Source of the DNA: Pseudomonas mendocina
GTDB lineage: Bacteria; Pseudomonadota; Gammaproteobacteria; Pseudomonadales; Pseudomonadaceae
DNA: 64,000 nt
Assembly: GCA_037482215.1 (NCBI GenBank)
Contig: CP148074.1
Coordinates: forward strand, 434,001 to 498,000
Reading direction: 5' to 3'
This document shows, piece by piece, positions 4,910-42,235 of this stretch (positions are counted from its first letter, which is position 1; every line of letters starts with the position of its first letter). The notes beneath the pieces were generated by a model. The model saw nothing but the letters and a program-made list of their open reading frames with translations, was not told the origin of the DNA and searched no databases. Both the position numbers and the translations under genes were made by a program.

Positions 4910-5164
4910 ATGTCTATGCGTGTTCCTGTGCTGCTTGCCACCTGCTTGTTATTGGCTGCCTGTAATAAGGTCAATCAGGAAAACTATGCACAACTGAAGT
5001 CGGGCATGACCAAAGCTGAAGTTGAGCAACTCCTTGGTGACGCCACTGAATGTTCCAGCGCTCTTGGTATTTCCAGCTGCACGTGGGGAACTCAGGAAAG
5101 CTTTATTAGCATTCAGTACGCAGGTGACAAGGTCATGATGTTCTCTGGAAAAGGATTGAAATGA
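4910..5164 (+). CDS. Small BamE/SmpA-like lipoprotein
   Basis: An 84-residue lipoprotein precursor. The signal peptide ends in the lipobox LLAAC, putting the lipidated cysteine near residue 18. The mature part holds the pattern YAQLKSGMTKAEVEQLLG, typical of small SmpA/OmlA (BamE-like) folds and of DUF3862-type proteins, followed by an unusual pair of cysteines (TECSSALGISSCTW) that could form a disulfide in the periplasm. Function is unknown; it is too divergent to call BamE itself. Its stop overlaps the start of the lipocalin gene in an ATGA, so the two form an operon. Confidence 0.82.
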   Translation: MSMRVPVLLATCLLLAACNKVNQENYAQLKSGMTKAEVEQLLGDATECSSALGISSCTWGTQESFISIQYAGDKVMMFSGKGLK

Positions 5165-7129: not shown

Positions 7130-8287
7130 GTGGTACAGCCTGTTTTTATCAACCGAGTCAATGCTTTTCTGCCCCACGATGCGGTCGACAACGATCACAT
7201 GGAAGAGCGTCTGGGGCGCGTCGGTGACAAGCCCTCACGAGCACGTAAGCTGATCCTGCGCAGTAACGGCATTCGCCAGCGTCATTACGCTATCGACCCT
7301 CTGACGGGCGAGCCGAGCATGACCAACGCTCAGCTCAGTGCCGAAGCCATTCGCGGTCTGTTCGATCACGACGGCCAGCTACGCGAACTCGATTGTTTGG
7401 TGGCGGGCACCGCGTCGCCGGATCAGGTGATGCCTGGCCACGCCGTGATGGTTCAAGGTGAGTTGGGCAATCCGCCCTGTGAGGTGGTGTCCACCGCCGG
7501 TATCTGTCTGTGCGGCATGACTGCACTGAAATACGCCTGGATGAGCGTTGCCAGCGGTGAAAGCCACAACGCCGTGGCGTGTGGTTCAGAGCTGGCCTCT
7601 GCGCTGATGCATGCCCGCAACTTCAATGCTGAATACGAAAGCCGTCTGGAAGAGCTGGAAGAGCGCCCCGAAATTGCCTTCGAAAAAGACTTCCTGCGTT
7701 GGATGCTTTCAGACGGCGCTGGTGCTGTCCTGCTGCAAAACCAACCTAACGCTAAAGGCTTGAGTCTGCGTGTGGATTGGATCGACATCCTCTCCTTTGC
7801 CGATCAAATGCCAGCCTGCATGTATGCGGGGGGCGAGATGGTCGACGGCCGCCTGCAAGGTTGGAGCCGTTACGACGGCGCCGAGCGCAATCGCCTCTCC
7901 GTGATGGCGATCAAGCAGGACGTCAAACTGCTTAACGACAACATTGTGAAGTACACCGTCGAAGAGACGCTCAAACGCATCATGCAGCGCCGCGAGCTGA
8001 GTGTTGAGGCAATTGACTACCTGCTGCCGCATTATTCCTCGGAGTTCTTCCGTGACCGTTTGGCTGCGGGGCTGGCCAACGTCGGCTTGCCGATTCCGCA
8101 GGAGCGCTGGTTCACCAACCTCACCAGCAAGGGCAATACCGGTGCTGCCTCGATATTCATCATGCTGGACGAGCTGTTCAACTCCGGCAAACTGCGTAGT
8201 GACCAGCGTCTGCTGTGCTATGTACCAGAAAGCGGGCGCTTCTCCAGCGCCTTTATGCACCTGACCGTGGTCGGGCAAGACGAGTAA
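7130..8287 (+). CDS. Beta-ketoacyl-ACP synthase III homologue (DarB-like)
   Basis: A 385-residue thiolase-fold condensing enzyme. The likely nucleophile is Cys126 in VSTAGICLCGMTAL, the histidine is in LLPHYSSEFF, and the asparagine in TSKGNTGAAS, so the Cys-His-Asn triad of KAS III is complete. In dialkylresorcinol pathways the DarB partner works with DarA to join two acyl chains. The gene starts with GTG, supported by TGAGGAA at 7118-7124 placed six bases upstream; no in-frame ATG occurs before residue 24. It follows the DarA-like gene by 19 bases and precedes a short conserved gene by five, indicating one operon. Confidence 0.85.
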   Translation: MVQPVFINRVNAFLPHDAVDNDHMEERLGRVGDKPSRARKLILRSNGIRQRHYAIDPLTGEPSMTNAQLSAEAIRGLFDHDGQLRELDCLVAGTASPDQVMPGHAVMVQGELGNPPCEVVSTAGICLCGMTALKYAWMSVASGESHNAVACGSELASALMHARNFNAEYESRLEELEERPEIAFEKDFLRWMLSDGAGAVLLQNQPNAKGLSLRVDWIDILSFADQMPACMYAGGEMVDGRLQGWSRYDGAERNRLSVMAIKQDVKLLNDNIVKYTVEETLKRIMQRRELSVEAIDYLLPHYSSEFFRDRLAAGLANVGLPIPQERWFTNLTSKGNTGAASIFIMLDELFNSGKLRSDQRLLCYVPESGRFSSAFMHLTVVGQDE

Positions 8288-38651: not shown

Positions 38652-38871
38652 CGATGGTTCACCTTCAGGGTAAGGAGGGGTGAAGGCTACTCACGCGGGT
38701 TTCAATAAAGAGTCAAAAGCGGGTGAAAAAAGTGTTGGTTGCAGCGTCCGGTTATCCCTATCCCGATGTGTGCCACGTGTCTTGATTAGGCAGCAAGTAT
38801 GCAGCGGGCACTCAGCGGCCTTGGTATAGTCGCGGCGACTTATGGTTGTAGTAGCCAGTAGGAGAAATGAC

Positions 38872-39150
38872 ATGGCCAAGATCACGATTGAACGCCCGCA
38901 TAACCTTGGCCGTGAAGCCGCCCGGGAGAAGGCCGAGCAACTGGCCGAGCGCCTGGCCAGCCGGTTTGATGTGCGGTTCCGCTGGAGTGGCGATACCTTG
39001 GAATTTAATCGCAGCGGTGCGGATGGCCGGATCGACGTGCATGAGGACTCCGTACGCGTTCAACTGAGCCTGGGGTTGTTGCTGTCACCCATGAGCAGCA
39101 CCATCAAGCACGAAATTGAAAAGGCCCTGGATAAGTATTTGCAGGCCTAA
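38872..39150 (+). CDS. Polyhydroxyalkanoic acid system family protein
   Basis: A 92-residue protein of the PHA granule-region family (PHA_gran_rgn). It begins MAKITIERPHNLGREAAREK and ends with a helix (SSTIKHEIEKALDKYLQA); the middle is a small beta-sheet. The family is encoded beside phasin genes and its function is unknown. The start has AGGAGAAATGAC immediately in front. The phasin genes phaI and phaF follow on the same strand, 130 bases on. Confidence 0.88.
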   Translation: MAKITIERPHNLGREAAREKAEQLAERLASRFDVRFRWSGDTLEFNRSGADGRIDVHEDSVRVQLSLGLLLSPMSSTIKHEIEKALDKYLQA

Positions 39151-39282
39151 GCTGCATGGCTGTGCTGTAGCTGCTCACGGGGATGTCCTGCAGTGAGCGA
39201 CGCTTAGTATGTGAATTCTAATTTTCCTCGCTATCGTGCACCCAAGCCTGCAAAAGAAGGCATCCATACAATGGAGGTGCAC

Positions 39283-39711
39283 ATGTCGAAAGTTGCCGTA
39301 ACGAACGTCGCTGCCCGTGAAAACAACCTGGCGGATATGTCTGAAGCCAAGGTCTGTGCCCGCAAGATCTGGCTGGCTGGTTTAGGGGTTTACGCAAAGG
39401 CCGGTCATGAAGGTGTTAGCTACTTCAATGCGCTTGTAAAAAGCGGTGAAGGTGTTGAACAGCGCGGCAAAAAACTGGTCAACAAACAAGTTGAAGCTGC
39501 CAATGGACAAATCGGCAGCTTCAAGCACACTGTAAGCAGCGTTAAGGACAAGGTTGAAGTACGGCTCGACAAGATTGAAAGAGCATTCGACAGCCGTGTC
39601 GCTAGCGCTTTGAATCGCCTCGGCATCGCCTCTCAGCAGGATGTAGAAGGTCTCTCTGCTAAGCTGGATGAGCTGGGTGCATTGCTTGAGCACGTCGCGC
39701 GTACCAATTAA
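39283..39711 (+). CDS. phaI: Phasin PhaI
   Basis: A 142-residue phasin of the PhaI type, the small granule-associated protein that coats medium-chain-length polyhydroxyalkanoate granules. The phasin pattern is KVCARKIWLAGLGVYAKAGHEG near residue 25, then SYFNALVKSGEGVEQRGKKL and a helix with the leucine-zipper-like end SALNRLGIASQQDVEGLSAK. The ATG at 39283 has GGAGGTGCAC before it. It shares its fold with the N-terminal half of PhaF encoded 10 bases downstream. Confidence 0.93.
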   Translation: MSKVAVTNVAARENNLADMSEAKVCARKIWLAGLGVYAKAGHEGVSYFNALVKSGEGVEQRGKKLVNKQVEAANGQIGSFKHTVSSVKDKVEVRLDKIERAFDSRVASALNRLGIASQQDVEGLSAKLDELGALLEHVARTN

Positions 39712-39721
39712 GGAGAGCAGG

Positions 39722-40753
39722 ATGGCCGTCAAAAAGAAAACCGATAAGCAAACCCCTTCCTGGATCGGCGAAGTAGAAAAATACTCGCGTCAAATCTGGC
39801 TGGCTGGTTTGGGTGCCTATTCCAAGATCAGTAAGGACGGCAACAAGCTGTTCGATGCACTGGTTAAGGATGGCGAAAAAGCTGAGAAGCAAGCCAAGGT
39901 CGAAGTTGATGGCGTGAAGTCCGCCGTCGGCGCGAAGGTAGGCTCGGCGAAATCCAAGGTTGATGAAGTTAAAGATAAGGCAATCGGCAAGTGGGGTGAG
40001 CTGGAGGAAGCCTTCGACAAGCGTCTGACTAAAGCCATTTCGCGTCTCGGTGTACCGAGCCGTAACGAAGTGAAAGACCTCAACGCTAAAGTTGAAAGCC
40101 TGACCAAGCAACTGGAAAAGCTGACCGGTGTATCTGCCAGTTCAGTTAAACCAGCTGCCAAGAAAGTCGCGGCTAAACCCGCAGCGAAAGCGGCTGCTAA
40201 ACCTGCCGCTAAACCGGCTGCCAAGCCTGCAGCAAAAGCTGCAGCCAAACCAGCCGCTAAGCCTGTAGCAAAAGCTGCGGCTAAACCAGCCGCTAAGCCC
40301 GCTGCGAAAGCCGCTGCTAAGCCTGCCGCCAAACCGGCAGTGAAAGCTGCGGCCAAACCAGCCGCTAAGCCCGCTGCGAAAGCTGCTGCTAAACCGGCTG
40401 CCAAACCGGCTGCAAAAACTGCGGCTAAACCAGCCGCTAAGCCCGCTGCGAAAGCCGCGGCCAAGCCTGCTGCCAAACCGGCAGTAAAAGCTGAGGCCAA
40501 ACCAGCCGCTAAGCCCGCTGCGAAAGCTGCCGCTAAGCCGGCCGCCAAACCGGCTGCAAAAACTGCGGCTAAACCAGCCGCTAAGCCCGCTGCGAAAGCC
40601 GCGGCCAAGCCTGCCGTTAAGCCTGCTGCCAAACCAGTGGCAGCGCCTACAGCGACTCCCACTGCGGCATCTGCACCGGCGGCAGCAACACCCGCTCCGG
40701 TAGCTGCACCGGCAACCCCTGCACCAGCCACACCGGCACCTGCTCAGTCGTAA
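39722..40753 (+). CDS. phaF: Phasin/histone-like regulator PhaF
   Basis: A 343-residue protein with an N-terminal phasin domain (residues 1-140; RQIWLAGLGAYSKISKDGNK) and a highly basic C-terminal domain of about 170 residues made of AAKP-type repeats similar to histone H1. In mcl-PHA producers PhaF binds granules and DNA, spreading granules between daughter cells. The start has AGGAGAGCAGG before it. Repeats span 40150-40640 and end in an Ala/Pro tail. No PHA synthase genes remain nearby, so its job here is unclear. Confidence 0.94.
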   Translation: MAVKKKTDKQTPSWIGEVEKYSRQIWLAGLGAYSKISKDGNKLFDALVKDGEKAEKQAKVEVDGVKSAVGAKVGSAKSKVDEVKDKAIGKWGELEEAFDKRLTKAISRLGVPSRNEVKDLNAKVESLTKQLEKLTGVSASSVKPAAKKVAAKPAAKAAAKPAAKPAAKPAAKAAAKPAAKPVAKAAAKPAAKPAAKAAAKPAAKPAVKAAAKPAAKPAAKAAAKPAAKPAAKTAAKPAAKPAAKAAAKPAAKPAVKAEAKPAAKPAAKAAAKPAAKPAAKTAAKPAAKPAAKAAAKPAVKPAAKPVAAPTATPTAASAPAAATPAPVAAPATPAPATPAPAQS

Positions 40754-40841: not shown

Positions 40842-41456
40842 TCAGTCGCGCAGATACCGTTGTGCGAGCAGGATGGCTGCGCTGTGAGCATTGTCCTGAA
40901 GATGTGGGGCGAGCAGCATCATGACTTGATAGACCACCAAGCGTGGTTCGCCCTGCTGACCCAGTACGCGCTGATAGTCGAGGGAGAACAGTAAGGTTAG
41001 GGTGATCTGTTCCACCAGTTGGCCCAGGGGCTGGGTATCGCTTCGCAGCTGTTGCTGGAAGTGCAGTTGCGCCAGCAACTGAGCCAGTGTTTGTTTCAAA
41101 GTGTTCAGCCACAGACGGATGCCCCGCTCAAGTTTTGGCAGGCGTCCGGTGAGGTTGGACAGGTCTTGAAAGAGAAAGCGGTAATGCGCCATACGTTCGG
41201 CAATCAGGTGCAGGAACAGCCAGCAGTCTTCGATATCCAGTTCGACGTTGTCCGGCGGTGAGAGCAGTGGTGCGAGTTCATGCTGGAAGCGTTCGAATAA
41301 CCCGAGAACGAGCGGTTCCTTGCCGTGAAAGTGGTAGTAGAGATTGCCGGGGCTAATCTCCAGTTCGTTGGCAATCTCAAGAGTGGAAACGTTGGGTTCT
41401 CCCTTGTGGTTGAACAGCAGGAGTGAGCACTCAAGAATGCGATCGCGGGTTTTCAT
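40842..41456 (-). CDS. phaD: TetR-family regulator PhaD
   Basis: A 204-residue TetR regulator. The helix-turn-helix is at about residues 5-45 (MKTRDRILECSLLLFNHKGE, then LEISPGNLYYHFHGKEPL) and the rest is a ligand domain. In P. putida PhaD activates the pha genes and lies directly downstream of phaC2. The start ATG at 41456 has CAGGGA before it; a GTG at 41471 is less likely. Here the gene follows an 11-base gap after the remnant of phaZ, and phaC2 is missing. Confidence 0.93.
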   Translation of the reverse strand: MKTRDRILECSLLLFNHKGEPNVSTLEIANELEISPGNLYYHFHGKEPLVLGLFERFQHELAPLLSPPDNVELDIEDCWLFLHLIAERMAHYRFLFQDLSNLTGRLPKLERGIRLWLNTLKQTLAQLLAQLHFQQQLRSDTQPLGQLVEQITLTLLFSLDYQRVLGQQGEPRLVVYQVMMLLAPHLQDNAHSAAILLAQRYLRD

Positions 41457-41467
41457 GGGTGTCCCTG

Positions 41468-41677
41468 TCACGGCTGACGTACCTGTCTTATTTGAGGCTT
41501 TGACTCAGTCCTGGCGCTGTTCGCCTGCGGATGCATGACGGCGCGCTGACGTTCTTCGTTTAGAAAAGTCATCATGATTGGCACCAAAGCGTCAGCGCAG
41601 GTCACCAGAAACAGGTTGCCGTCGTCGATGATAGGCAGGTCGGAGTGGGGAATCCTCCAGTCCGGCCCGGCGAACCA
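41468..41677 (-). pseudogene. phaZ: 3' remnant of PHA depolymerase phaZ
   Basis: Read on the minus strand from 41677, the frame gives WFAGPDWRIPHSDLPIIDDG, NLFLVTCADALVPIMMTFLN, EERQRAVMHPQA and a tail up to a TGA at 41468-41470. As I recall it, the C terminus of P. putida PhaZ reads WRIPNAQLHIIDDGHLFLIT followed by RAEAVAPIIMKFLQQERQRA and VMHP, so about 45 codons of phaZ survive. Two stop codons (TAA 41678-41680, TAG 41681-41683) precede it in frame and no start exists. phaC1, the first 230 or so codons of phaZ, and phaC2 are absent from this site. The tail after VMHP is longer than in known PhaZ and probably runs into former spacer DNA. Confidence 0.85.
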
Positions 41678-41802
41678 TTACTAGTCGTAATCCACCCTGT
41701 CGCCGGAGCGAGTTTTACTCACGTGAGACAGGGCCAATCTAGGGTTGCGGAGGACGGCACCGCCATGAATAAACGTGCGGCCAGTATGCCGTCAAGAATT
41801 AG

Positions 41803-41822
41803 AAAATGCGCTCTAACAGCGC
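41803..41822 (-). terminator. Terminator-like hairpin after the DUF971 gene
   Basis: On the minus strand GCGCT-GTTAG-AGCGC (41822-41808) is followed by ATTTTCTAATTCTT, a T-rich end, about 40 bases past the DUF971 stop. Confidence 0.6.
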
Positions 41823-41860
41823 GAAGCCTGAGATAAGGGGCTTGGAGGGGCGGTGAATCG

Positions 41861-42235
41861 TTAAAGCATGAGTTTGATGACGCTCTCATTGGGGTCGCGG
41901 GATTTACCGGCGGTGGCCAGGGCATCGAGGTACTCTTGCCAGAGTTCTTCTTGGCGTAGGCATAGCTGTTCAAGGTAGTCCCACGTAAACAGTCCGCTGT
42001 CGTGGCCATCATCAAAGGTCAGCTTGACCGCATAATTGCCTGCAGGCTCGATATTCTCCAGGCCGACATTGAGCTTGCCGGTTTGCAGAATGGGGTTGCC
42101 GTGGCCTTGCACTTCCGCAGATGGCGAATGCACCCGCAGGAACTCCGCAGGCAGGCTGTAGTGCTCGTTGGGGCCGTATTGCAGCTCCAGCGTTTTCGAG
42201 GCTTTACGCAGTTTGATGGCGGTAGGCGTACGCAT
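41861..42235 (-). CDS. DUF971 (gamma-butyrobetaine hydroxylase N-domain-like) protein
   Basis: A 124-residue protein equal to the DUF971 domain, related to the N-terminal domain of gamma-butyrobetaine hydroxylase. MRTPTAIKLRKASKTLELQYG and TFDDGHDSGLFTWDYLEQLC are typical. The family is linked to iron-sulfur or carnitine biology in other organisms, but for this gene no role is known. It follows hslU, 54 bases on, as in other Pseudomonas, where it is normally followed by phaC1. Confidence 0.9.
   Translation of the reverse strand: MRTPTAIKLRKASKTLELQYGPNEHYSLPAEFLRVHSPSAEVQGHGNPILQTGKLNVGLENIEPAGNYAVKLTFDDGHDSGLFTWDYLEQLCLRQEELWQEYLDALATAGKSRDPNESVIKLML

Follow-up and report, generated by a model that had tools for sequence, protein, structure and literature searches.

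In the Pseudomonas mendocina genome studied here, the class II cluster for medium-chain-length PHA has lost both synthase genes, phaC1 and phaC2, and retains the depolymerase gene phaZ only as a decayed scar. Intact genes remain for the PhaD regulator and for two phasins, PhaI and PhaF, and sequence comparisons suggest that they are under constraint. The arrangement is best explained, with good confidence, by the loss of medium-chain-length PHA metabolism in steps, during which the helper genes were kept. PHA is commonly regarded as a typical trait of Pseudomonas, and gene losses within pha clusters are in themselves nothing unusual. The retention of regulator and granule-coat genes after loss of the synthase and depolymerase hints at another job for these helpers. 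The window, by which we mean the whole stretch of 64,000 nucleotides that was analysed, covers positions 434,001 to 498,000 of CP148074.1.

Absence of synthase and depolymerase genes

The genome consists of one 4.76 Mb contig, rated 100% complete. An earlier note on this DNA had reported phaC1 and phaC2 as missing and had raised the question of phaC genes elsewhere in the genome. Neither gene has a match within the window, and the PhaC_N domain (PF07167), which the domain search finds in 272 of 298 genus genomes, has no match anywhere in the genome; the absence of both genes therefore holds. The PhaC1 of the related locus L005, described below, also gave no match in the genome when used as query, in a search without a positive control of its own. 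Together the PF07167 and PhaC1 searches, the latter with the restriction just given, thus found no synthase elsewhere in the genome. The synthase gene expected of an mcl-PHA producer with a class II pha locus is thus lacking. An intact PhaZ was not found either: none of the 13 genome matches to the depolymerase profile TIGR02240 lies above the cut-off, and two of the 13 are the scar itself.

Layout of the locus and comparison with relatives

The last codon of the DUF971 gene and the first position of the longer phaD reading frame are 392 bp apart, in agreement with the roughly 400 bases given before. For comparison, 80 named loci were gathered by PhaD similarity, a set from which records very near the own genome may be missing, and 78 of them hold both flanks. 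In 75 of these 78 the same interval is 4.7-5.7 kb, the exceptions being L005 (3026 bp), L059 (2037 bp) and L060 (7597 bp). The genes around the scar are intact; they are hslU, the DUF971 (GBBH-like_N) gene (41861..42235, minus strand), phaD, phaF, phaI and the PHA_gran_rgn (PF09650) gene (38842-39150, plus strand). The window thus has the flanks, the phaD, phaF and phaI genes and the gene order of the class II cluster phaC1-phaZ-phaC2-phaD / phaI-phaF, and it shares the upstream element of phaC1 with the clusters of near relatives, but it lacks phaC1, phaC2 and a working phaZ, of which only a stub is left.

The closest named relative found among the 80 loci is L005 from Pseudomonas sp. TTU2014-080ASC (PhaD 88%). 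Its locus reads phaC1-phaZ-phaD, without phaC2, and its whole assembly contains one PhaC_N. In a 97-taxon tree based on hslU, the DUF971 gene and ubiE, from which L012, L053 and L060 (low coverage) and the second G094 stretch (L155) were left out, L005 is the sister of the window with support 1.0. The two loci are alike in lacking phaC2 and in having phaZ, a scar in the window, directly before phaD; they differ in that phaC1 and phaZ are intact in L005.

Alignment to L005 locates two deletions, both on the minus strand. The junction of a deletion of about 2.5 kb, comprising phaC1 and the 5' part of phaZ, lies at 41770..41772, where the L005 alignment ends at 5086 and restarts at 7605. The junction of a 102 bp in-frame (34-codon) deletion within phaZ lies at 41656..41659, where the alignment ends at L005 position 7719 and restarts at 7818; the size of 102 bp was calculated from these end points, the two alignments overlapping by 4 bp in the window. 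The motif ACATT is found near both L005 break points of the larger deletion, and the smaller deletion has TGG close to its ends; the presence of these motifs would fit illegitimate recombination. No coding remnant of phaC1 was detected in the window by alignment to L005.

Some part of the scar query is matched by 274 of 398 genus genomes, and among the matches listed only the own genome matches the full query; the next ones cover parts of phaZ only, for example 215-359 of 421. The same scar in another species was not seen among the best matches listed from these 398 genomes.

Since the sister locus L005 has phaC1-phaZ-phaD and lacks phaC2, it is most simply assumed that phaC2 was lost first. 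We suggest that the ancestor common to the window and TTU2014-080ASC would have lost phaC2, which would have left phaC1-phaZ-phaD, and that the deletion of about 2.5 kb would then have joined the phaC1 upstream region to the middle of phaZ. The 102 bp deletion and point mutations would have ruined what remained of phaZ, where either order is possible. In the absence of a synthase gene PHA polymerisation should stop, with the PhaD, PhaI and PhaF genes staying intact and apparently constrained. The earlier note had argued for at least two deletions and had proposed a comparison with relatives. A relative that lacks only phaC2 and keeps phaC1-phaZ-phaD, together with the separate deletions of about 2.5 kb and 102 bp, fits a loss in several steps.

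The phaZ scar

The phaZ remnant spans 41770-41525 on the minus strand and consists of two decayed pieces. The 3' piece (41525..41659) holds the C-terminal ~45 codons, with the original stop gone. It matches positions 231-275 of TIGR02240 (PHA depolymerase, 276 positions) with E=1.2e-16 in an NCBIfam profile search and is recovered at E=3.8e-15 by a whole-genome scan with the same profile. The proposal that the scar encodes a PhaZ C terminus on the minus strand is thereby borne out, and translation of 41468-41677 on that strand yields the peptide that had been quoted. The middle piece (41657..41770, minus strand) is an addition, since only the 3' piece had been noticed before; it corresponds to TIGR02240 positions 160-197 (E=2.6e-4, whole-genome scan) and is interrupted by one in-frame TAG and one TAA. 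At the DNA level the middle piece is 67% identical to L005 7605-7719, and the 3' piece lies within a 359-column alignment of 80% identity that runs from L005 7818 into phaD. The two profile matches mark the scar as a PhaZ homolog in the form of a pseudogene, and its TIGR02240 score of 60.9 bits, against a curated cut-off of 250.6, sets it apart from a working PhaZ. The 69-residue stub gave no Pfam match at E<=0.01.

At sites that are invariant among near relatives, the window is altered at 26 of 135 positions in the scar (18/67 and 8/68), compared with 2 of 137 in the intact phaZ of L005. With all 80 loci as reference, 17 of 93 invariant sites are altered. The scar is confirmed as a genuine decayed phaZ remnant. 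Its features also bear on whether an assembly or sequencing artefact could have collapsed an intact phaC1-phaZ(-phaC2) cluster. The remnant contains stops, the internal 102 bp deletion and the 26 changes at invariant sites, and there is no clean join; moreover, the contig is single and complete, and the cluster of the sister L005 is likewise reduced. Nothing was found in favour of such an artefact, which is exceedingly improbable, and because of the stops, the point mutations and the separate deletion in the stub we reject assembly collapse.

The retained upstream region of phaC1

A refinement beyond the earlier note is that DNA upstream of the lost phaC1 is kept at 41841-41772 (minus strand), as found by alignment to L005 and ten intact loci; a GCATACT box in this region may be a promoter. 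Within these 70 bases the block TTAGAGCGCATTTTCTAA is identical in L005 and ten near relatives, the 11 intact loci aligned here being chosen close relatives, and contains the palindrome TTAG-N10-CTAA. The palindromic element of the lost gene, TTAGAGCGCATTTTCTAAT, is located at 41798..41816 (minus strand), is identical in the 11 aligned intact loci and was also found by pattern matching in the genome. Its counterpart upstream of phaI-phaF, TTAGTATGTGAATTCTAAT (39204..39222, plus strand), was found by pattern in the window and genome, and the same element is present in L005. In P. putida, PhaD is reported to bind the phaC1 and phaI promoters (review PMC9049629), and published accounts describe it as an activator of both (PMC5658603, PMC9049629, PMC13052382). 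Since the palindromes lie upstream of these two genes, whose promoters are reported to be PhaD-bound, we read them as putative PhaD operators, the one of phaC1 now being an orphan. PhaD may still act at the phaI promoter and perhaps also at the orphan phaC1 element, which is now positioned upstream of phaD.

The distribution of the element in the genus is uneven. Of 78 loci, 24 have the exact 18-mer of the scar in front of phaC1 and 40 have TTAGA-N8-TCTAA, and 17, mainly from the P. aeruginosa, nitroreducens and alcaligenes groups, lack even the loosely defined TTAG-N7 to N13-CTAA. For phaI, a coarse scan restricted to a fixed region found TTAG-N10-CTAA in 30 of 74 loci. The same pattern was found in none of 20 stretches (with the DUF971 gene, a phasin or both) from 19 other PHA-less genomes. 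Of the 24 sites of the palindrome block that are invariant in 29 loci, one is altered in the window, as compared to 26/135 in the scar, with p=0.08 by Fisher's test and 0.04 by a binomial one. That the orphan palindrome is retained above chance is thus suggestive only, and a strong claim of selection on it was dropped in view of these values. A genome-wide PhaD regulon defined by the palindrome was also dropped, since the motif shows no enrichment: with a T added at its end it has 8 matches in the own genome, two of them at the pha locus, and the reversed control has 8 as well. The GTG at 39211, assigned mechanically as start of the phaI ORF, falls inside the phaI-side palindrome (39204-39222), and translation probably begins at the ATG at 39271 or 39283.

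Intact phaD, phaI and phaF genes

The TetR-family regulator gene phaD (40842..41456, minus strand) is intact when read from the chosen ATG at 41456; a longer ORF starts at GTG 41471. The protein contains the PF13972/PF00440 domains and is 73-88% identical to the PhaD of intact loci, as expected for an ortholog. The phasin genes phaI (39271..39711, plus strand, with the start at 39271 or 39283 by choice) and phaF (39722..40753, plus strand, chosen ATG 39722, listed ORF from 39668) also have intact frames. Both match TIGR01837 above its cut-off of 94.7 bits, PhaI with E=4.5e-36 (123.5 bits) and PhaF with E=4.7e-39 (133.1 bits), which identifies them as phasins; PhaF has in addition a PF05597 match and a long AKP-repeat tail. 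The listed phaF ORF counts 361 codons, or 343 from ATG 39722, and the open frames in the other genomes listed are at most 335 aa.

As a measure of constraint, sites without variation in the near relatives L005-L034 (26-30 loci for each gene) were examined for changes in the window. The changes amount to 5/298 for phaD, 4/223 for the first 160 residues of phaF and 3/114 for phaI, with 3/787 for hslU, 1/147 for the DUF971 gene and 5/470 for ubiE as controls and 4/131 for the PHA_gran_rgn gene. When the reference is widened to all 80 loci (71-80 for each gene), the values become 0/218, 1/137 and 1/65 for phaD, phaF and phaI, and 0/631, 0/128 and 1/389 for hslU, DUF971 and ubiE. In the near set each of phaD, phaI and phaF is distinct from the scar, with p between 4e-10 and 4e-5; at comparable sites the scar is altered about tenfold more. 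That the three genes are intact and look constrained goes beyond what had been noted before. Taken together they exceed hslU, DUF971 and ubiE in changes in the window (12/635 vs 9/1404, p=0.016), and the same excess is seen in the phaC1-bearing L005 (27/662 vs 22/1426, p=0.0009).

How much this constraint says depends on the order of events. The decay of phaZ may have preceded the loss of phaC1, which could then be recent. If so, the scar as a clock overstates the time spent without PHA, and the constraint on phaD, phaI and phaF says little. A state with phaC and without phaZ is possible, as L059 shows.

Genomes of the genus without PHA synthase

PhaC_N is absent in 26 of the 298 genus genomes, one of which (G080) is only 86% complete. 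All 26 of these PHA-less genomes keep the DUF971 gene, and 16 keep a TIGR01837 phasin above the cut-off (11/20 and 5/6 in the two sets). The other ten are without phasin, which suggests that PhaF is dispensable in some backgrounds. Two phasins above the cut-off are found only in the own genome, and no other of the 26 combines two full phasins with PhaD. Each of the 15 other phasin-keepers has a single phasin in an open frame of 249-320 aa, a PhaF-like length, and the frames of G164, G001 and G116 (269, 278 and 249 aa) are free of stops; the PhaI-type second phasins of phaC-positive genomes are mostly shorter than this. Among phaC-positive genomes, 38 of 40 have phasins, each with at least two matches, the two without being G091 and G142. 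PhaD at ortholog level (73-100% identity) was detected in one of the 26, the own genome, and in 4/4 phaC-positive controls; the other matches to the PhaD query at E<=1e-20 in PHA-less genomes are 34-45% identical.

In nine of the ten other phasin-keepers of the first set the phasin gene adjoins the DUF971 gene, leaving no space for a synthase operon, and in G094 it lies elsewhere; the coordinates show the same adjacency in the five phasin-keepers of the second set. Genomes of this type, for example G132, G106 and G164, resemble the window in having a PhaF-type phasin beside the DUF971 gene and no PhaC_N, but differ from it in lacking an ortholog-level phaD and a second full phasin. The remaining nine of 19 PHA-less genomes have none of phaC1, phaZ, phaC2, phaD, phaF and phaI at the locus and no phasin genome-wide.

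Placed on the tree, 20 PHA-less genomes form nine all-negative clades, a rough number as the phaC-positive taxa were picked by PhaD similarity; six PHA-less genomes were left off. Five of the nine clades, the window included, keep PhaF, and two of these each include a member that has lost it (G026, G080). In comparisons of PHA-less species with one another, the pN/pS of PhaF is 0.08-0.42 in all eight pairs, which overlap and are not independent, the values being uncorrected with pS up to 0.80. In 13 phaC-positive pairs it is 0.00-0.38, and the PHA-less pairs are looser than most of these. The ratios in PHA-less species indicate purifying selection on PhaF at the sequence level. A tail with lysine, alanine and proline is present in all seven readable sequences of ten extracted, and is weakest in G161.

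Possible roles of the retained proteins

PhaF is described chiefly as an organiser of PHA granules (PMC5658603, PMC13052382). According to passages in these papers and in PMC9049629, its tail is the part that binds DNA, and its N domain attaches to the granules. In the literature titles, abstract openings and some passages covered, recurrent loss of the PHA synthase with PhaF kept was not seen. Since PhaF is often kept in PHA-less clades, it probably has a PHA-independent role. The combination of a phasin domain with a histone-H1-like DNA-binding tail suggests that this could be a job in the nucleoid. PhaD and PhaI would have been retained either by virtue of a younger loss or with PhaD still driving phaI-phaF. 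The own genome may represent an intermediate stage, because other PHA-less lineages lack PhaD and have PhaF alone or no phasin. In its full form, the proposal is that PhaF belongs to the nucleoid in the first place and is recruited to PHA without depending on it. Pseudomonas lineages would repeatedly lose the synthase; the regulator and the small phasin would disappear too, and selection would often preserve PhaF. The genome studied here would be caught part-way with PhaD-PhaI-PhaF and an orphan phaC1 operator. We regard this proposal as evenly balanced between right and wrong.

Two other explanations of the retained genes can be considered. The locus could simply be in the course of decay, with phaC1 lost recently, phaZ decayed earlier, and phaD, phaI and phaF without function and next in line. 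phaC1 left no coding remnant by which its loss could be dated, L059 has a phaC without phaZ at the locus, and among the 26 PHA-less genomes an ortholog-level PhaD at E<=1e-20 is lacking in 25, meaning that PhaD is normally lost. However, several clades have kept PhaF, which is constrained between PHA-less species, and at least this protein is not awaiting loss; we consider ongoing decay of all three genes rather unlikely. The retained phasins might also coat another inclusion, such as polyphosphate or neutral lipid, instead of acting at the nucleoid. This is favoured by AlgP of P. aeruginosa, a histone-H1-like protein of which passages in PMC9239181 state that its C-terminal KPAA-repeat domain is homologous to that of PhaF and that it positions polyphosphate granules. 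The same passages describe PhaF as abundant but not enriched in the polyphosphate pellet, and a role on another inclusion seems unlikely to us. A natural PHA-less species with PhaF offers a clean background for studying the function of the phasin and its histone-like tail without the granule. As a stepwise intermediate, the locus also shows how a storage pathway may be dismantled, with the synthase and depolymerase going first and the regulator and coat proteins later.

Other observations on reduced clusters

Pseudomonas sp. ML96 (L059, 6279-8642) has a single phaC directly before phaD, with no phaZ match at the locus and one PhaC_N in the assembly, and represents a second, different form of cluster reduction. 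The phaZ match of Pseudomonas morbosilactucae (L065, 5290-5910) covers residues 1-201 only, at lower identity, which suggests a frameshift or truncation. G091 and G142, the phaC-positive genomes without TIGR01837, have one PhaC_N each with weaker E-values than most, and their synthase may be of another class. The PHA_gran_rgn (PF09650) gene is kept in eight of nine phasin-less PHA-less genomes, and its PHA-system name may mislead. A partial second phasin match (profile positions 70-115) occurs beside the intact phaF in G094 (L134, G094:C2:2056883-2057020) and G192 (L135, G192:C1:5421047-5421184), possibly a decaying phaI.
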